Positions 12,478-49,977 of a stretch of 63,597 nucleotides of DNA are shown piece by piece; the first letter of the stretch is position 1, and each line of letters begins with the position of its first letter. The DNA is from Candidatus Altimarinota bacterium. Its GTDB lineage: Bacteria > Patescibacteriota > Gracilibacteria > UBA1369 > 2-02-FULL-48-14. The translations under genes and the position numbers were made by a program. The notes under the pieces were generated by a model. That model made no database searches and was not told the DNA's origin. It was given only the letters and a program-made list of their open reading frames with translations. The stretch lies in contig WFTC01000020.1 in NCBI GenBank assembly GCA_015485665.1, forward strand, positions 1-63,597, given 5' to 3'.

Positions 12478-15132
12478 ATGGCAGATTTTTTTACACAGTT
12501 TAAAGCAGCATTGGAGGAAGCTTGGCTTTACTTTCAGGTAAAAGGAGTGTGGATTTTGCTACTAATACTTGCATTGCCTTTACTTTATAAGTGGAGCTTT
12601 AAGTTTTTAAGGCTTTTTTACTCTTTGAACTCTTCAAAAGAGAGAGTTTATATGAAAATAACCATGCCTCGTCAAGAGTCCCAGAAAGATAAAGAAAAGG
12701 CGACAGATAAAGACTTTCGTGAAAGAATTTCAATTATGGAGCAACTTTACAGGGGTTTGCATGAGATTCGTGAATTGAATTTGGGGAACCGTATTAATGT
12801 TTTCTTTACACAAAGAGATATTGTTACTTTTGAGATTCATGCAAGATTCAAAGAGATAGCATTTTATTGCTCAATCCACCCTTATTACGCTGAAATACTT
12901 GAAAAACAAGTAACTTCTTATTATCCGGATGCAGATATTGAATATACGCGACCTCCTTCTTTACAGAATTATGGGGAAAAGAAGAAAAACTTTGTAAAAT
13001 CGTACTATCTTTATACTAAAAAAGTGGATTGGTATCCGCTTAAAACTTATAAAATAATTGAAAATGATCCTCTCAATGATTATACAAATGTTTTGTCCAA
13101 AATTGAGGATAATGAGCATGCGGTTATACAACTGGCGATAAGACCCAGAAATCCAAAATGGCAGAAGAAAGCGCAATCTTTTGGAACGGCACTTTTTAAA
13201 GGTAAAAAGCCAAAACAGGGAGGTTTTTTCTTGGGATTTTTACGTATTTTCGCATGGATTTTCACTGCACTTATTCAAGGCGTGGAAGCTGCAGATAAAA
13301 TGTCTCCGCCTCCGGGCGCGAATAGCGGAGATTCTTATGTTAGAATGCTGCAAACAGATGAAGAATTGGCAAAGCGAGTGGGAGAAAAAGCCGGCGATGT
13401 TGGCTTTGATACAACGCTTAGAATTTTTGCATCTTCAAATGCAGGTGAAGCAAAATGTGATGAAATTTTGAATGGCTTGCTTGTTGCTTACAATGTTACA
13501 AAAGATGCCGCATCAAATTGGATGCAATCAAGAAGAATTATTATTATTGACACTATTAACAGTAAAATTCAGCAGTGGGCACGCAAGCATGCAATTTTAA
13601 ACTTCCTTGAAAAACAATCCATCTTAGGTCCTCAAGAATTGTCTACTTTGTTTCATTTTCCAACTTCTCGTTACAACTACACGCCTGTAATTAAATGGAT
13701 GTCTTATAAAGTTTTACCTTTGCCTTCAGATGCTGCAGAAGAAGGCATACATCTTGGAGATAATGTTTATAGAGGAGTTAAAAGATCGGTTTATTTCAGG
13801 AGGAAAGACAGGCGCCGTCACCATTATATAATAGGGCAAACCGGAACCGGTAAATCTGCTTATATCAGTTGGATGGCTCGTCAAGATATTTGGAGTGGTG
13901 ATGGAGTTTGCGTGATTGATCCTCATGGCGATTTGATTGAAGACATTCTTCAGTATGTACCTAAAGAAAGAGCAAGAGATGTTATTGTATTTGATCCGGC
14001 GGATCTTGAAAGACCTATGGGGCTAAATATGCTTGAAGCCAAGACGGCTGAACAACAAGATATGGCATCTAGTCAGGCTACTGAAATATTCATAAAAATC
14101 TTTGGAGACGAGATTTTCGGACCTAGAATTCAGCATTATTTCAGAAATGCATGTTTAACTTTGATGGAAGATCCGGATGAGGGCGCAACTCTGCTTGATG
14201 TGCCGAGAATTTTTGTTGACGAGGAATTTATGAAATATAAAGTTTCAAAAGTTAAAAATCCAGTGGTTAGATCTTTTTGGGAGCATGAATATGCAAATAC
14301 AGGAGATAGAGAAAGACAAGAAATGATTCCTTATTTCTCAAGTAAATTCGGACCTTTCATAACAAATTCAATCATGCGCAATACCATAGGGCAGGCAAAG
14401 TCTGCATTTAATGTGCGTGAAGCAATGGATGAGCAAAAAATTCTATTGGTGAATCTTTCCAAGGGTAAATTAGGCACTCTCAACACTCAGCTTCTTGGTC
14501 TTGTTTTAGTTGCTCAGATTCAAATGGCAGCCATGAGCAGAGTGGATACACCTGAAGATGAGCGCAAGGATTTTTATCTTTATGTTGATGAGTTTCAAAA
14601 TTTTGCTACTGATACTTTTTGTTCAATTTTATCTGAGGCGCGTAAGTACAGACTGAGCCTTATTATGGCGCATCAATATATAAACCAATTGGTTGTGAAA
14701 GGTGATACGCAAATTAGAGATGCGGTTTTTGGTAATGTGGGAACTTTACAATCTTTTAAAGTTGGCGCTGAAGATGCCGAATATTTGGCGAAGGAATACG
14801 CTCCTGTACTTTCAGAACAAGATGTAATTGGCATTTCAAACTACAAAGCTTATATAAAATTGAATATCAAAAATGCCACTTCCAGACCTTTTTCACTCCA
14901 CACATTGTGGGATACCTCAAAAGCAAATAAAAAAGTGCGAGATATAATTAAAAAATATTCACGCATGAAATATGGTAGAAAAAGGCTTTTTGTCGAGCAG
15001 GAGATAGCCGCGCGAATAGGTATAGATTTGGAAGACCTTGGCGCGGAGGTAGATCCTGATTACACTGTGAAAGTAAATCCAACGGCATCCACAGCCACGA
15101 CTAAATCCAATATTAACAATGAAGATTCCTGA
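12478..15132 (+). CDS. Membrane-anchored HerA/TraD-like ATPase, copy 1
   Basis: An 884-residue protein with one N-terminal membrane helix (about 24-42, WILLLILALPLLYKW) and a long cytoplasmic region. The ATPase domain resembles type IV secretion coupling proteins and HerA/FtsK-type DNA pumps: Walker A GQTGTGKS (about 452-459), DPHGDLIEDIL just after it, and Walker B-type YVDEFQNF (about 703). No relaxase, VirB or Tra gene is nearby, so conjugation is not supported. The coding end overlaps the LCP gene by 14 bases, implying linked expression. A second copy of the family lies at 47512-49977. The role is unknown; DNA or protein movement across the membrane is the reasonable guess. Confidence 0.85.
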   Translation: MADFFTQFKAALEEAWLYFQVKGVWILLLILALPLLYKWSFKFLRLFYSLNSSKERVYMKITMPRQESQKDKEKATDKDFRERISIMEQLYRGLHEIRELNLGNRINVFFTQRDIVTFEIHARFKEIAFYCSIHPYYAEILEKQVTSYYPDADIEYTRPPSLQNYGEKKKNFVKSYYLYTKKVDWYPLKTYKIIENDPLNDYTNVLSKIEDNEHAVIQLAIRPRNPKWQKKAQSFGTALFKGKKPKQGGFFLGFLRIFAWIFTALIQGVEAADKMSPPPGANSGDSYVRMLQTDEELAKRVGEKAGDVGFDTTLRIFASSNAGEAKCDEILNGLLVAYNVTKDAASNWMQSRRIIIIDTINSKIQQWARKHAILNFLEKQSILGPQELSTLFHFPTSRYNYTPVIKWMSYKVLPLPSDAAEEGIHLGDNVYRGVKRSVYFRRKDRRRHHYIIGQTGTGKSAYISWMARQDIWSGDGVCVIDPHGDLIEDILQYVPKERARDVIVFDPADLERPMGLNMLEAKTAEQQDMASSQATEIFIKIFGDEIFGPRIQHYFRNACLTLMEDPDEGATLLDVPRIFVDEEFMKYKVSKVKNPVVRSFWEHEYANTGDRERQEMIPYFSSKFGPFITNSIMRNTIGQAKSAFNVREAMDEQKILLVNLSKGKLGTLNTQLLGLVLVAQIQMAAMSRVDTPEDERKDFYLYVDEFQNFATDTFCSILSEARKYRLSLIMAHQYINQLVVKGDTQIRDAVFGNVGTLQSFKVGAEDAEYLAKEYAPVLSEQDVIGISNYKAYIKLNIKNATSRPFSLHTLWDTSKANKKVRDIIKKYSRMKYGRKRLFVEQEIAARIGIDLEDLGAEVDPDYTVKVNPTASTATTKSNINNEDS

Positions 15133-17674: not shown

Positions 17675-20600
17675 TTAAGGATAGATTTGCATTCTATCAA
17701 TATTTGAATTTGGTATATACATGGTGATAGGTCCAATGTCATATGTGGCTGCATCTTGTGCAATGGCATCTCTAATTATCTGTATAAGCTTAGAATTCAA
17801 ATCATTGGCATATTTTTGCGCATCAAACTTCCCATTTGAAAGAAAATTATTTTGAAATACTTCATCAATCTGTTCTTCTATTTTGGAGTGTATGGTTTTC
17901 CCATGTTGAGTGCCAATGTTTGGCAACGGCACTTTATTAACTAATTTGCCGGCTCCAATACCAAGTATGCCACCTGCACCTGCAGCTGTAACTCCACCTA
18001 TTACTGCTCCGGGTGCACCGCCTAGAGGACCACCAATACTGGAACCAAGGACGGCTCCACCAACAATACTGGATGCAAGCAGGATAGGAGTTGCAATGCT
18101 TTGCACTTCTTCACCTGCCTTTGCTTCAATTTTAGAATTTATAATAGTATCGTAGAAGGCTGCTTCAATATGAAGGGCGATTTTATAATCTATTAATCTT
18201 TTCTTCAGGTTACTCAAGTTTTCGGCACGTGGAAGAATTTCAATTTCAAGGCGTCTTTTTGCATGATCACGAAAATAGCGTGGCCATTGTCCATCTAATC
18301 GTGTGAATTTTGAAACATCAATTTCAGATTCAAATTCTTTCATAAAGCGATTCACTTCAGAACGCATTTGCCTGTATTCACTAAGTTTTTCATTATGCTC
18401 CCAATCCAGAGCGCTGACTTCTTCACGAGTCCAGTCGGATGGATTTACAGCGGTATTTTTAAGAGTAAGCCATTCTTCAAAGTTTGGGATGGAGTTCATA
18501 ACCACACGTGCTTTTTTCCATTGAGATTTATTGTTTCTATTAAGAATAGATGTAAGATCACTTGATGAAAAATCAAACATAGAGATCTGACCCTCCGCTA
18601 CATTGCTGAAAAATTTTCTATATTCTTCAATATCTTGAGTATTTGAAGCTCTGAAAGCTCCAAAATCTATTTTTTCCATCCAAATTTGTGCTATATCTTG
18701 ACGGATCCAGTTATTTTTCAGACTTATTAAATTCTCATTTTGGTAGGATGAATCTATCCATTGCAGTATTTCAGCGGAAGCTTTTTGCCATGCAGATCTG
18801 TTTGGGGAATTGCGGCGTATCATGCTTTGTATCAATTCCTCTTCAACCTGCATAAATTCATCCGGGTCAGCTTCACGTCCGGCAATATTTATGGAACTTA
18901 ATAGTCCTTCTGGATTTTCAAGATAAATTTGATAGCCGGAAAGGTTTTGAGCTTCTTTCTTCATTTCCTGCACAGTTTCATCCACATAGTTTTTAATTTC
19001 TTTGTTATAAGAGCTGAATGTAGCCGGATCTTGATTCTTTAAAAAGGGATATATGTTTGCATTCAAATATTCATTGTACTCATCAATGTAACGTTTTAGT
19101 CGCCAGTTGATAAAATTATCAAATTCATCATCTGTAAAACTTTTTTCAATATCTGCAATGTTAGAATACAAATCTATTGCTTGCCTACGTAAGAAATCAC
19201 CGGAATATTTCATATAATCAATTGTATTTTCATTTTTTTGCGCTTCTCTCAGTGAGTATGGTGCTGACTGTTGTTCTGAGCCATAGAAAGGAATATTCAA
19301 ATTTGAATCTATAAAGCCTTGAAGTGATGAGGCATCCGCTTCTTTATATGGCTTCACTCCTTCCGCCTCCAGAGCTTTTATAAATGCATAGCTGTTGTAA
19401 CGTTCATCAATCCACAAATTTCCCTCTTTTGATTTTATTGCTCTTGCCATAACACTTGGAAATATCCCTTCAAAATAACTGCGCCATGCAACAGCTTCTT
19501 TTGAATTGAATTCTGCAGAGCTCGTATTCATAGGGTAGCTGAGCTCCATAATTTTCAATAAAATCATTTTATGGATAATGTCTGCACTTTTCATTCCTTC
19601 AATTCCAACTGTATCAAGATCTATGCTATCAACTTTTCCTTCAATAACATTTTCAAACTTTTCAATCCATTTCACATATTCCGGAGTCATTCCCATTTCT
19701 TTAACTTCACGAATATTCAGTTTACGGCTTTCACTAAGCCTGCCGGGACTTTCTGCAGAATTTGCAATTGATCTGGCCTTTGCTTGTAATTTATTCATGC
19801 GAGGAGCAATGATCCCATCAACTACTTCTTTTCTAAGTTTTTCATGCCATTCACCCTTATTAAAAATGGGATTTTTACTGTTATCACTAAAGTTTTCCGA
19901 ATATAAGAGCATGATTTTCCCTTTTACCTCATTATGCAAGACAGCCCTTTGAAAGGCGATTGCTTCCATCCATGCTGAATCTGCGCTTTGTATATCCAAA
20001 TTTCTGATATAAGTCCATAAATCATTCACCCCATCTAAATCCATTGGGAAATTTGGTATATCATCTTTCCCAGAGAAAGCAGCTCCAAGCTGGAACATTA
20101 CATCCTCAACCTCTTGATTTTCATCAACAAGACGCATTGCTTCATTTTCCGCAATGTTTTCCCATTCCTGACTTAATTCTTCAGGTATTTTTGTATCATT
20201 TTCAAGTAATACAATTTTTACTATTTCTTGATTTTTATAAATTATTTCTCCTTTACGTTTTTGCAAGCCCCACAGAATATCAACTTTCCCTTGTTTACTT
20301 TTAGGATTCATTGCCCATACTTTTTCTATTTGTATAGGCAAATTACCGGTAATGTATTTTAAGTCATTTTGCACAACCTCAAGAACACGTTCTTTTATTA
20401 CTTGCATTTCAATATCTTGGAAATTGGAAGTGCCAACTTTATCAAGAGATTCTTGAATGCGCACCTTTGGTGCCTCCCGTCCAGCTTGAAATATAATGGC
20501 AACGTGGCGTTCACGTACATTTAGTCCAAGGTGTGGAAGTGGTGGAGTGTTTATACTTTGCTTGGAAATCCATTCATGATTTTTTTCATCATATTGAAGA

Positions 20601-22105
20601 GTATCAAGCCCGTTTAGCACTGTTCCGGGGAAGAAGTCATTAACTCTTTGTTGCACGAGTTTTTTTGTTATATCACCAATTCTGTCTTGAACATTTTTGC
20701 CCACATGCAATGAAATTCCGCTTCGTGGATCTTTAAATGTGTGAAGTTTTCTATCAGTGTCATAATCATACTCCCAAGGATAATCATTAATACGCACATA
20801 TCTTTCGCCATCAAAGAGTCCAGGTAAAAGTTTTATATCTGTTTTTTTACTCTTTCCATTCTCATTCCAAGTGTCCAGACCCTTATTTTTGAAGTCATTT
20901 ATTATTCTTGCCTGCATAGCTGTCTCCAAAGGTGTTAAGATTGCTTCTTCAAGATCTATTCTGGTGGATATCAATGCACGGCTTACATCTTTTTGATTTA
21001 CAGTCATAAGGATGGCAGTATTTAAGTTAGAACCTTCAGCTTTATTTACGAATTTTTCATAAAATATATCCATACCATTTGATACAGTTTCTCGCATATT
21101 ACTTCCTTCACGATTGTTTTTGCGGGCAAGTAAAATCATAAAATCTTCCAAAGCTTTATAAGATGAAGCTCCATTCATGCTTTTGGCTTCATTCAAGCTC
21201 AGATCATCCATGCCTGCTCCCATACGAGCAAGGGCGTATGGGTCAATAGAGCGTTCGCCTTTACGAAAAGCTTGATTGAATACCCTGTAAATATCCTCAC
21301 AATCCGAATTTAGCATGCGTTCAAGATCACGAGCAGTTTGATCGTTTTCTATATTGAGTCCAGGGTACATTGCGGAGATTCTATCAAGAATATCCCCTTT
21401 ATCATTTATTATTTCGGAGCTTAATCCCAATATGTCAAAAAGGTCTTGTCCTTTTTCACTTTGACTGCGAACAATCATATTTGCAAGCAAGCCGCCTCCA
21501 CCTATAAGGCCGCTTGCAATTGCACCTCCTTTCATCCATTTTTTTATTTTTTCATTTCCACCATTCCAAAGCAAGGCAATTGCACCTGTAAGAGCAGCTG
21601 TTCCAACAAGAGTTGCCATGGGGTGCCTTTGAAACTCTTTGAAAATTTTAGAAAGACCATTCGCAGCATGTTTTGTTACATCATCTCTTAATGTTTCAGT
21701 TTGCAGAGCTTCTTTTCTCATTAAAATATCAATATGTGGTGCAAGATTTTCAGATAATTGCTTCAATATGCGCACAGCTTCTAACTTTTCTTCACCGCTC
21801 CTTCGTAAATCTTGGATAAATTTTTGAGAAAGAGCTGGATACTCATAAAAGGCAATTTCAATTGCATTTTTCATATTTTCTCCACTTAAAAGATCTCCGG
21901 CTACAAGTGGAGGGACAGATTCACGAAATTTTTGAGCAATAAGCATCAATTTATTCTTATTGCCGATATAGCTTTCAATATCCGCTTTAAGATGTTCAAG
22001 CTTATCTGCAGTTGTAGAAGATGCAGGCAGATTCTCAATTTTTTCATATTGCATCTTTCCACTTTCTTCACGAGATTTGACTAATCTTTCTTCCTTTCCT
22101 TCCAT
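17675..22105 (-). CDS. Giant 1476-residue protein with two Gly-rich hydrophobic regions, unknown
   Basis: One of the longest genes in the window, with no family I recognise. There is no signal peptide; the first 160 residues are charged and helical. Residues about 163-180 and 193-212 are hydrophobic and glycine-rich (LVGTAALTGAIALLW; IASGLIGGGGLLANMIV). About 1100 residues of Glu/Lys/Asn/Trp-rich, largely helical sequence follow. A second hydrophobic region at 1337-1386 is a glycine zipper (repeated GG or GxxxG). A polar tail of about 90 residues ends the protein. Such zippers insert into membranes in pore-forming and membrane-deforming proteins. It has its own promoter sharing a -35 with tig. 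Function unknown. Confidence 0.85.
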   Translation of the reverse strand: MEGKEERLVKSREESGKMQYEKIENLPASSTTADKLEHLKADIESYIGNKNKLMLIAQKFRESVPPLVAGDLLSGENMKNAIEIAFYEYPALSQKFIQDLRRSGEEKLEAVRILKQLSENLAPHIDILMRKEALQTETLRDDVTKHAANGLSKIFKEFQRHPMATLVGTAALTGAIALLWNGGNEKIKKWMKGGAIASGLIGGGGLLANMIVRSQSEKGQDLFDILGLSSEIINDKGDILDRISAMYPGLNIENDQTARDLERMLNSDCEDIYRVFNQAFRKGERSIDPYALARMGAGMDDLSLNEAKSMNGASSYKALEDFMILLARKNNREGSNMRETVSNGMDIFYEKFVNKAEGSNLNTAILMTVNQKDVSRALISTRIDLEEAILTPLETAMQARIINDFKNKGLDTWNENGKSKKTDIKLLPGLFDGERYVRINDYPWEYDYDTDRKLHTFKDPRSGISLHVGKNVQDRIGDITKKLVQQRVNDFFPGTVLNGLDTLQYDEKNHEWISKQSINTPPLPHLGLNVRERHVAIIFQAGREAPKVRIQESLDKVGTSNFQDIEMQVIKERVLEVVQNDLKYITGNLPIQIEKVWAMNPKSKQGKVDILWGLQKRKGEIIYKNQEIVKIVLLENDTKIPEELSQEWENIAENEAMRLVDENQEVEDVMFQLGAAFSGKDDIPNFPMDLDGVNDLWTYIRNLDIQSADSAWMEAIAFQRAVLHNEVKGKIMLLYSENFSDNSKNPIFNKGEWHEKLRKEVVDGIIAPRMNKLQAKARSIANSAESPGRLSESRKLNIREVKEMGMTPEYVKWIEKFENVIEGKVDSIDLDTVGIEGMKSADIIHKMILLKIMELSYPMNTSSAEFNSKEAVAWRSYFEGIFPSVMARAIKSKEGNLWIDERYNSYAFIKALEAEGVKPYKEADASSLQGFIDSNLNIPFYGSEQQSAPYSLREAQKNENTIDYMKYSGDFLRRQAIDLYSNIADIEKSFTDDEFDNFINWRLKRYIDEYNEYLNANIYPFLKNQDPATFSSYNKEIKNYVDETVQEMKKEAQNLSGYQIYLENPEGLLSSINIAGREADPDEFMQVEEELIQSMIRRNSPNRSAWQKASAEILQWIDSSYQNENLISLKNNWIRQDIAQIWMEKIDFGAFRASNTQDIEEYRKFFSNVAEGQISMFDFSSSDLTSILNRNNKSQWKKARVVMNSIPNFEEWLTLKNTAVNPSDWTREEVSALDWEHNEKLSEYRQMRSEVNRFMKEFESEIDVSKFTRLDGQWPRYFRDHAKRRLEIEILPRAENLSNLKKRLIDYKIALHIEAAFYDTIINSKIEAKAGEEVQSIATPILLASSIVGGAVLGSSIGGPLGGAPGAVIGGVTAAGAGGILGIGAGKLVNKVPLPNIGTQHGKTIHSKIEEQIDEVFQNNFLSNGKFDAQKYANDLNSKLIQIIRDAIAQDAATYDIGPITMYIPNSNIDRMQIYP

Positions 22106-22126: not shown

Positions 22127-22178
22127 ATTATATACTTATTCAGAAAAAATTGCAATAGCGCTAAAGCTTGGGTATTGT
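22127..22178. promoter_or_regulatory. Divergent promoters sharing one palindromic -35 hexamer
   Basis: TTGCAA at 22150-22155 is its own reverse complement. Reading + gives TTGCAA, 17 bp, TATTGT (22173-22178), ending 23 nt before the tig ATG. Reading - gives TTGCAA, 17 bp, TATAAT (22132-22127), ending 21 nt before the ATG of the 1476-residue protein. Both spacers are exactly 17 bp. Confidence 0.65.
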
Positions 22179-22201: not shown

Positions 22202-23485
22202 ATGGAAATAACACTTGAAAAGCTCAATAAGCTTGAGATGAAAATCACAGTATCTTTCAGTGAAGAGGAGATATTGCCTTACAAGGCAAAGGCTACATCT
22301 CAGTTACAATCTCAAGTGAAAGTGGACGGTTTCAGAAGTGGAAAGGTGCCAATGGAAGTTCTTGAACAAAAAATAGGTCACCATGCCTTTATGGGGAAAG
22401 TCTTGGATCTTGCAATAGGTGAGAGTTATGAAAAGGCAATTCAAGACAATAATTTGATGCCTATTGATTACCCAAAGATTAATGTAATAACTCATAATCC
22501 GCTTAAATATGAAGCTATTGTAACTTTATTACCGGAGATTGAATGGATTAAAGATTTGTCTGATTTAAAACTTAAAAAGCCTAAATTTAAAGTTGAAGAT
22601 AAAGAAGTTGATGAAGTTCTTGAAAATCTTCTTCGCAGAAGTACAAAATGGAAAGATGTTGATCGTCCAGCAAAAATGGAAGACCGTGTTGAGATTAATT
22701 TTGAAGGTTTTGATAAAGACGGAATTGCATTGGAAGGTACATCAAGTAAGAATCATCCTGTGATTTTAGGTTCAAACTCATTGATTCCGGGTTTTGAAGA
22801 AGAAGTTGTAGGAATGAAGAAAGATGAAGAAAAAGAATTTCAAATTGTATTTCCAAAAGACTATCATTCAAAGAAATTTCAAAATAAGAAAGTTAAATTT
22901 AAAGTAAAATTATGCCGTTTAGAAGAGCCGGACAAGCCTGAGCTAAACGATGCCTTTGCAAATGAAATTACCGGAGGACATAGAAAAACTTTGAAAGCTT
23001 TAAAAGAGGAAATCATTGAAGAGCTGCATAAGCAGAAGGAGCGTCAAGAAGAGTTGCAGATGGAAACAGACTTCTTAAAAGAATTGTCAAGCTATGTAAA
23101 AGCGGAGATACCGCAGCAGCTCATTGATCATGAAATTGATTTTATGATAGAGAGAATGAAAGAAGATCTGAAAAGGCGTGGAAAAACTTGGGAAGAGTAT
23201 GAAAAAGAGCTAAAAGAAGAGAAGAAAGATATAAGAAAAGAACTTTCAAAGTCTGCCAAAGAGCAAGTTCTTACAAGATTAGCATTGGAAGATGCTTATA
23301 AAAAAGCAAATATTGAAGTTACAGATGATGAAATTCAGAATGAAGTTGAAGAAATAATACTGCGTTATCCACCTGCCTTGACAGAGATGGCAAGAAAAAA
23401 TTTTGTTGAGGGGGGGGAGTCATGGAAAAAAGTCCACAACCAAATAAGACTCAGAAAACTTGTTTCCATGCATGTAGACAAATAA
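22202..23485 (+). CDS. tig: Trigger factor
   Basis: Ribosome-bound chaperone and peptidyl-prolyl isomerase. All three domains are visible in 427 residues. The N-terminal ribosome-binding domain contains VDGFRSGKVPMEVLEQKIG (about 40-58), with the GFRxGKxP docking signature. The FKBP-type domain (about 150-245) has GFDKDG, LGSNSLIPGFEEEVVGMK and the FPKDY block. The C-terminal arm is long, Lys/Glu-rich and helical. The promoter is shared in part with the divergent 1476-residue gene, and a strong terminator follows 13 bases after the stop, so it is probably monocistronic. Confidence 0.96.
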   Translation: MEITLEKLNKLEMKITVSFSEEEILPYKAKATSQLQSQVKVDGFRSGKVPMEVLEQKIGHHAFMGKVLDLAIGESYEKAIQDNNLMPIDYPKINVITHNPLKYEAIVTLLPEIEWIKDLSDLKLKKPKFKVEDKEVDEVLENLLRRSTKWKDVDRPAKMEDRVEINFEGFDKDGIALEGTSSKNHPVILGSNSLIPGFEEEVVGMKKDEEKEFQIVFPKDYHSKKFQNKKVKFKVKLCRLEEPDKPELNDAFANEITGGHRKTLKALKEEIIEELHKQKERQEELQMETDFLKELSSYVKAEIPQQLIDHEIDFMIERMKEDLKRRGKTWEEYEKELKEEKKDIRKELSKSAKEQVLTRLALEDAYKKANIEVTDDEIQNEVEEIILRYPPALTEMARKNFVEGGESWKKVHNQIRLRKLVSMHVDK

Positions 23486-47511: not shown

Positions 47512-49977
47512 TTATATTAAAGCTCCAAGCCTGCGGAAGATTTCTCGTTCTACAAAGGCTTTATCTTTTCCATATTTCAAGCGACTTAATTGTACCAAAG
47601 CATCTGCAATGGCGGGATTGCCGCTTTCAAGATAGGGATTTACCGGAATAATACTGAAAGGTTTTGAAGGTTGGGTGTCAATTGACAGTTTCATTACGGC
47701 TTTATATTTATCTGTATTGATTAAGTCTTGATCAGAAAAAATAGGTGCCATTTCTTTAGCCATATATTCCGCATCTTGCGCTCCTATCTTATAACACATA
47801 ATGGATCCAACATTTCCAAAAACAGCATCTTTCAAGTTGACGCCGGAGCTTCTACGACCGCCGCTCGTTTCCAGCTGTGCAAGATATTGGTGAGCCATAT
47901 TCAAAGATAAACGATACTTACGTGCTTCAGACAATATAACTTCAATTGAGTCGGTTACATAGTTTTGAAATTCATCAATGTACATGAAAAAGTCACGGCG
48001 ATCTTCTTTCGCCATTCTTTGGCGCCTAAGTGCCGCAACTTGTAATTTGGAAACAATAATCATGCCCAATAATTTTGAGTTGATATCTCCAGTCTCTCCT
48101 TTAGACAAGTTTACGAGCAGAATTTTTCCTGTGTTCATACAGTCTGAAATATCAAAAGCGGATTTCGTCTGACCTATGATGTTACGCATGAGTCCGTTTG
48201 TTACAAATTGCCCGAATTTAGATGCAAAATAAGGAATCATTTCTTGTTTTTCTCTTGCACCCGTTTTAGCCATTTGATTCTCCCAAAAAGATTTTACAAT
48301 GGGATTTTGAATATTTTTGGTCTTTTCTTTCTGAAAATCATCATCGGTAAATAAGCGAACGATATCAGTTAAAGCACCTCCTCCTTCGGCTTCCATTAAA
48401 GTCAAACAACCATTTCTGAAATAATCTTGAATGCGTGGACCAAATATTTCTTCATCAAATAGTTTGATCATTATATTCATTGCATCCAATGCAATCATAT
48501 CACGCTCCTCAGGCGTTTCAGCCTCAAGCAAGTTAAGACCCATTGGACGCTCCAAATCACCGGGATTAAAATAAATAACATCATCAGCACGCTCCTTTGG
48601 TATAAAAGGTAATAAATCTTCAATAAGTTGCCCGTGAGGGTCCATAACACATACACCTTTCCCATTTTTAAAATCTTGCCTAATCATAACTTGCAATATG
48701 GATGACTTACCCGTCCCTGTTTGTCCGATTACATAAAAATGTCGAAAACGATCTTCATTCTTCATATAAACTGGAGTGCTGACACCCCTATAAACATTAT
48801 GTCCGAGCAATAAACCTTCTTTAGGTAAATTATGAGGAGGTGGGGCAATTTTATAATTTTGCCAATTTATATTTGGAGCTTTGTTGTATTTTATATTCGG
48901 CAAATGAAAGAGGCTTGCTAATTCTTCAGGTGTAAGAATCATTTTTTTGAAGCGTCTTGGTATATACATATCACGCATTAAAAAATGAGGAATAATATCA
49001 CCGATATATTTATCTCTTGTGCCAAGTGAATTGTTATCAGTTGTAGCGTATTGAGCAAAAGAGGTTTTCATACTTGCCAAGATAGAGTCCGCCTTATCTT
49101 TTCTGTCTGAACTTGCAACTAAGCGTATGATGGTATCAAAGCCAGTTTGAGTATTTTTTTCTTCAATTGCTTTGATTTGCTCATCTAATAAAGGAGTGGT
49201 GCGTCCCGCGCTTTGATCAGGTAAAGATGATTCCGAGCTTCCCCTGAAAATCATTGACAAAAGATCAGAAATCCATTTCAAAGGATTAAAGCTAGCAAGC
49301 AAAGATTCACTATCTTTATTTTCCATAAGATTTTTTGCTATCTCCCTGCCTTCTTTTTGCCAACCATTAGGTTCAGGTTTGAGCATGATTTGAATTACTG
49401 CACCTTCATGAACTTCAAGCTTGGAAAGAGCATTTGTAATCCCGTTTAAAGGATCACTACTCATACGCATATAAGTTTTAATAGGGTATGAGTAAGGTTT
49501 TGTAGTATGCATAAAACAATGTGAAACCGCAGAATCTTCTTGAAAAATGTTATAATCCTCAGTCTCTTCAATATAAGTGTCCGGATAATAAGTTGTAATC
49601 AATTTCTCAACCACCTTTTTAAGATAATTTGGAAGCACAACATAAAAATCTATTCTGCTATCTTTCAGTACATACTCAAAAGAAAGGAAGTCTTGACCTT
49701 TTATTCTTGCACTCCATTTGCCAGCTGCCAAGGAGGATAAAGACTCAAAGAATTGCTTCATAACACCAATGCTTTCTTTGAAATCTGCATTACCACCCAA
49801 GCTTTCACGATCAGCCTCCTTATCTTCTTTGGATTCCTTTTTAGGAATCCTTATCTTTAAAAAAACCATATTCAGGCAACGCTTTTTATTATAAAAAGCA
49901 CGAACGCGCAAGAGCACCATCCATCCGATGAATGCAATGGCTAAGGAAGCGGAAATGACAGTTAAAATTAAGTTCAA
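47512..49977 (-). CDS. Membrane-anchored HerA/TraD-like ATPase, copy 2
   Basis: An 821-residue relative of the ATPase at 12478-15132, with the same layout: an N-terminal membrane helix (about 4-25), a long conserved middle part and an ATPase with Walker A GQTGTGKS (about 417-424), DPHGQLIEDLLPFIP and YIDEFQNY (about 665). The two share long near-identical stretches such as NVYRGV, ERPMGLN and EARKYRLS. The start is TTG at 49977, chosen because it gives the helix directly. It lies last in the DUF5665-dnaE-aspS run, 21 bases after aspS. The copies differ in the middle region and may serve different cargo or form a hetero-oligomer. Confidence 0.85.
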   Translation of the reverse strand: MNLILTVISASLAIAFIGWMVLLRVRAFYNKKRCLNMVFLKIRIPKKESKEDKEADRESLGGNADFKESIGVMKQFFESLSSLAAGKWSARIKGQDFLSFEYVLKDSRIDFYVVLPNYLKKVVEKLITTYYPDTYIEETEDYNIFQEDSAVSHCFMHTTKPYSYPIKTYMRMSSDPLNGITNALSKLEVHEGAVIQIMLKPEPNGWQKEGREIAKNLMENKDSESLLASFNPLKWISDLLSMIFRGSSESSLPDQSAGRTTPLLDEQIKAIEEKNTQTGFDTIIRLVASSDRKDKADSILASMKTSFAQYATTDNNSLGTRDKYIGDIIPHFLMRDMYIPRRFKKMILTPEELASLFHLPNIKYNKAPNINWQNYKIAPPPHNLPKEGLLLGHNVYRGVSTPVYMKNEDRFRHFYVIGQTGTGKSSILQVMIRQDFKNGKGVCVMDPHGQLIEDLLPFIPKERADDVIYFNPGDLERPMGLNLLEAETPEERDMIALDAMNIMIKLFDEEIFGPRIQDYFRNGCLTLMEAEGGGALTDIVRLFTDDDFQKEKTKNIQNPIVKSFWENQMAKTGAREKQEMIPYFASKFGQFVTNGLMRNIIGQTKSAFDISDCMNTGKILLVNLSKGETGDINSKLLGMIIVSKLQVAALRRQRMAKEDRRDFFMYIDEFQNYVTDSIEVILSEARKYRLSLNMAHQYLAQLETSGGRRSSGVNLKDAVFGNVGSIMCYKIGAQDAEYMAKEMAPIFSDQDLINTDKYKAVMKLSIDTQPSKPFSIIPVNPYLESGNPAIADALVQLSRLKYGKDKAFVEREIFRRLGALI

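Follow-up and report, generated by a model that had tools for sequence, protein, structure and literature searches.

A fast-evolving, undescribed protein family encoded divergently from tig in one order of Patescibacteria

The described proteins closest to the one analysed here, which we call P, are a Gly-zipper family and the NTF2-like folds. The Gly-zipper/DUF6861-type family (Pfam PF21724, E 0.72) is like P in composition around residues 1343-1387, but the match lies below the cut-off and is limited to a species-specific insertion that homologues of P lack. Part of the N-terminal model of P also resembled a designed NTF2-like protein (9r00) with a Foldseek probability of 0.94, a likeness that is not significant at E 0.13 and an rmsd of 16 Å. 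Searches of Pfam, PHROGs and NCBIfam gave no match to P above curated cut-offs, in agreement with the preliminary description, which had recognised no family in it, and no clear match to a cytosolic family was found. The P profile reached E ~0.05 at best among PDB sequences, with unrelated proteins, and a Foldseek search of the N-terminal model against PDB and BFVD returned nothing at E<=0.001. A literature search, which was not exhaustive, found no earlier description of the locus.

The window (the whole stretch of DNA analysed, 63,597 nucleotides) contains P as its longest ORF. The reading frame was recovered as first described, running on the minus strand from an ATG at 22105 to a stop at 17675 through 1,476 codons with 0 internal stops, and the source genome (860 kb, 23 contigs) carries a single copy. 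The gene had also been credited with a strong promoter; a promoter-like site is indeed present, but shuffled DNA of the region yields a mean of 1.0 such sites, and the credit cannot be upheld. P is one of the largest genes of a reduced genome and has stayed at the same locus in most of the order, yet none of the libraries searched annotates it. Elsewhere in the window, 12478-15132 and 47512-49977 encode a pair of large, mutually related VirD4-like ATPases that carry membrane segments at the N-terminus, as read by eye from the ORF translations.

Table 1. Features of P and its surroundings (positions in the window).
Feature	Position	Strand	Basis
P (1,476 aa), member of an undescribed family spread across the order	17675..22105	-	ORF, homologues, no known-family match
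Gly-rich insertion, window species only, residues ~1331-1395	17921..18115	-	absent in G004/G005; lowest occupancy in 18-member alignment
C-terminal helical module, residues 988-1271	18293..19144	-	repeat HMM (window P among building sequences)
Alpha/beta domain with GYPY-type motif, residues 421-640	20186..20845	-	strands and two helices, pLDDT ~55-75
Helical domain after the putative hairpin, residues 240-370	20996..21388	-	pLDDT mostly 74-93, dip at ~290-310
Conserved hydrophobic Gly-rich pair with short Lys-containing loop (putative membrane hairpin), residues 162-212	21470..21622	-	18-member alignment; low pLDDT
N-terminal helical domain, residues 35-135	21701..22003	-	AlphaFold2 pLDDT ~85-90 over most
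Promoter-like TTGCAA-17-TATAAT 5' of P	22127..22155	-	10-of-12 match; one site expected by chance
tig (trigger factor), divergent from P, marks syntenic locus	22202..23485	+	

P had been called an orphan, a label that did not survive comparison with its relatives. A direct protein search with P against 99 relatives gave matches confined to its own family (f1), in 4 of the 5 other genomes, with pairwise E values of 2e-7 to 2e-20 that do not depend on profiles. All four homologues lie directly divergent from tig, as was to be looked for according to the preliminary description, and have 1,287-1,454 codons, the copy of G001 being cut by a contig end; the fifth genome (G002, 69% complete) yielded no match to P or to tig. 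Across the same genomes the identity of P is only ~18-25%, compared with 47-52% for tig and 64-75% for a neighbouring HTH protein. The orphan-like look of P is therefore explained by fast divergence rather than by a recent origin, and because P diverges faster than its neighbours it is missed by sequence searches, while synteny with tig does find it.

Profiles extended the family to the order. One built on the N-terminal domain from five sequences recovered 13 more members from the order's other families, and the enlarged profile, covering the N-terminal half, matched in 52 of the 89 order genomes (43 of the 62 of good quality). Window P itself scores E 6e-76 (profile A5) and 1.4e-136 (profile A2), with its own sequence included in both profiles. 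Among 380 genomes sampled evenly across the phylum, nine matched, seven within the order and two, weakly, outside it. Named relatives, reached via the linked peptidase C described below, are Gracilibacteria and Peregrinibacteria MAGs. P thus belongs to an undescribed, fast-evolving family of one Patescibacteria (Peregrinibacteria-related) order of ultra-small bacteria, encoded divergently from tig, and its homology and synteny were observed directly.

We also looked at the tig locus across the order. A large ORF within ~2.6 kb of tig (minimum length 450 codons, or 250 for ORFs truncated where a stretch ends) is divergent from tig in 62 of the 69 order genomes in which the upstream region of tig could be read, and directly adjacent in 53, a count in which not every ORF is P, the first often being protein A and several being too divergent to assign. 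Considering that ~14 of the ~47 likely genes of the window reach 450 codons (counted by eye), a gene of this size would lie next to tig in this orientation far less often by chance. The usual order elsewhere is tig, then divergently A, B, P, a membrane-protein gene (often or in some genomes) and peptidase C. In those other families P has 477-1,448 aa, A has ~540-1,150 aa where its profile matches, and B has ~110 aa (about 103-146 aa), while C combines a signal-like N-terminus with HExxH and a conserved FEDFAE motif. Across the 89 order genomes C was found in 50, B in 33 and A in 24. The A and B profiles, which match elsewhere and so served as positive controls, gave no match in the window's family; there C was found in G004 only, with no match in the window's genome, so that the window lineage has lost its partner genes A, B and C. 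As P stands without a C match in 4 of the 5 window-family genomes that carry it, P does not require C, and C was rejected as an obligatory partner. Comparison of the P and A profiles showed no relation (E 0.75).

Parts of this arrangement recur in other places. A second copy of B (L188:6324-6644, G041:C30) is flanked by two other large genes, one of 1,251 codons and one of at least 1,480, so that the large-small-large pattern appears again outside the tig locus. In L190 a B-like gene has as neighbours a glycosyltransferase-like gene and two others, 902 codons and at least 964 codons long. In the window, 763-1431 encodes a 222-aa protein ~16 kb from P whose homologues in many of the order's other families are encoded close to A-B-P-C.

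The domain order of P was read from alignments and from an AlphaFold model of residues 1-680, built with 18 sequences (mean pLDDT 65). The long charged helical body proposed earlier is in part borne out, as helical domains are predicted at 35-135 and 240-370, but residues 421-640 are predicted to be alpha/beta. This last domain carries the GYPY-type motif, NDYPWEYDY in window P, which is also present in other members of the family. The model of residues 660-1476 was unreliable (mean pLDDT 40) and was left out of the fold search. In this region a helical module of ~245 aa occurs once in window P, once in G005 and as three tandem copies in G004 (L009, ~588-1322; ~30-38% mutual identity by self-comparison and repeat HMM), and G003 has a different two-copy repeat of ~158 aa. 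Most of the 34 best-conserved columns of the family hold Gly, Pro, aromatic or aliphatic residues; polar positions (E19, D42, K188, N209, D288, K351, D900 and E1314) each recur in no more than 10-13 of 15-18 sequences. The alignment contains neither a conserved His or Cys nor an acidic residue that is invariant, which makes an enzyme unlikely.

Both hydrophobic Gly-rich stretches exist where they had been placed, at 162-180/194-212 and 1336-1389, with hydropathy peaks of 1.55-1.73 in window P and 1.2-1.9 in homologues. Results showed that they differ in history. The N-terminal pair recurs in one position in the 18-sequence alignment; its small residues are conserved, the loop carries W-K, and L-x-N follows the second segment. 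The C-terminal stretch belongs to an insertion of ~65 residues that is missing from G004 and G005, the two homologues that align through the region, and the alignment occupancy at 1351-1375 is 1.3 of 18. Therefore, the two "glycine zippers" do not make up a single conserved device; of the membrane regions proposed earlier, the N-terminal pair is conserved and its membrane association is plausible, if borderline, judging from sequence, while the C-terminal segment drops out as species-specific. Two long proteins encoded away from tig in family f13 (L121:2520-6575 and L122:4615-7968; 1,351 and 1,117 codons) weakly match the region of the hydrophobic pair (E ~1e-3 and 3e-5) and are possible distant paralogues of P.

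Our preferred reading, to which we give a probability of only about 0.4, is that P is a mainly cytoplasmic, membrane-anchored, non-enzymatic scaffold with a variable helical arm. P would be made in the cytoplasm and tethered by the hydrophobic hairpin at the inner side of the cell membrane, where the N-terminal and alpha/beta domains may hold partners and the C-terminal helical arm, variable in length, could set the reach or the binding specificity. The scaffold role is deduced from the absence of catalytic residues and fold matches and not from a positive match. Against the anchored reading, the segments are mildly hydrophobic with low pLDDT (~40-60 at the N-terminal pair), and insertion of the putative hairpin is a prediction. 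Alternatively, P may be fully soluble in the cytoplasm, as a scaffold or as a cytoskeletal or chromosome-associated protein, with the pair buried as a helical hairpin or serving as the core of an oligomer. The mild hydropathy, the Lys residues within the pair of several homologues, the lack of any segment above 1.2 in G025 and the high-confidence helical domains on either side of the pair all fit such a protein; however, a hydrophobic pair stands at this position consistently across the family and the model, with its low pLDDT there, shows no confident burial of it, and we regard a soluble P as somewhat unlikely.

The main difficulty for an anchored P lies in its topology. By the positive-inside rule, the Lys-containing loop would put both large domains outside, contrary to the missing signal peptide: window P, as read from its sequence, starts with a charged N-terminus and no hydrophobic stretch, and no convincing signal-peptide-like N-terminus was found among its homologues; the G062 protein shows a hydrophobic start, but with a start codon that was picked mechanically. 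The role in adhesion or host contact raised by the preliminary description is unsupported considering this N-terminus. P might still be exported or surface-exposed by an unrecognised route, acting as an adhesin or effector on neighbouring cells with the Gly-rich segments inserting into a membrane. Its very fast divergence relative to tig in the same genomes, the modular repeats, the link of its relatives to a secreted metallopeptidase and the pore-like Gly-rich insertion of the window species would agree with this, but the N-terminus of the window protein does not, no adhesin or toxin matched above cut-off, and vertical conservation at one locus in most of the order speaks more for a housekeeping-type component than for a mobile effector. 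We consider export improbable.

The length variation, the hydrophobic segment and the long helical build of P could also recall a phage- or mobile-element-derived assembly, of which P would be a remnant (a tape-measure-like or injection-type part) fixed beside tig. A weak PHROG match (E 0.0011) points the same way; it covers the Gly-rich insertion only, and outside this low-complexity segment A, B and P have no meaningful PHROG match. Moreover, no viral structure matched at E<=0.001 in BFVD, tblastn against plasmid sequences gave no match, and no phage structural genes were recognised around P. Such an origin is very improbable.

Returning to P as an anchored scaffold, A and B may join P in a single envelope-associated assembly in the order's other families, where the secreted peptidase C would work on the outside of the membrane. 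Extending this, the tig-divergent A-B-P-(membrane protein)-C locus could be an undescribed envelope-spanning apparatus of one episymbiont-type order, with P as its membrane-anchored core, kept alone in the window lineage; we put this forward as a speculative and rather unlikely extension. If P is an envelope scaffold, it would offer a handle on how minimal, probably host-dependent cells build their surface.

In comparison with known systems, the P family is undescribed in the libraries searched, and a new category could be claimed only with a mechanism. Pfam, PHROGs and NCBIfam were also searched with all three of the proteins A, B and C, and PDB sequences with C. The order-wide HExxH...FEDFAE metallopeptidases of the C family (for example L009:12343-13017 and L037:13800-14612, with 11 other loci in alignment A4) gave weak matches to Peptidase_Mx, ATLF and LP_HExxH_w_tonB (PF15887, PF07737 and TIGR04549), all below curated cut-offs, and protein C is a remote relative of known zinc metallopeptidases.
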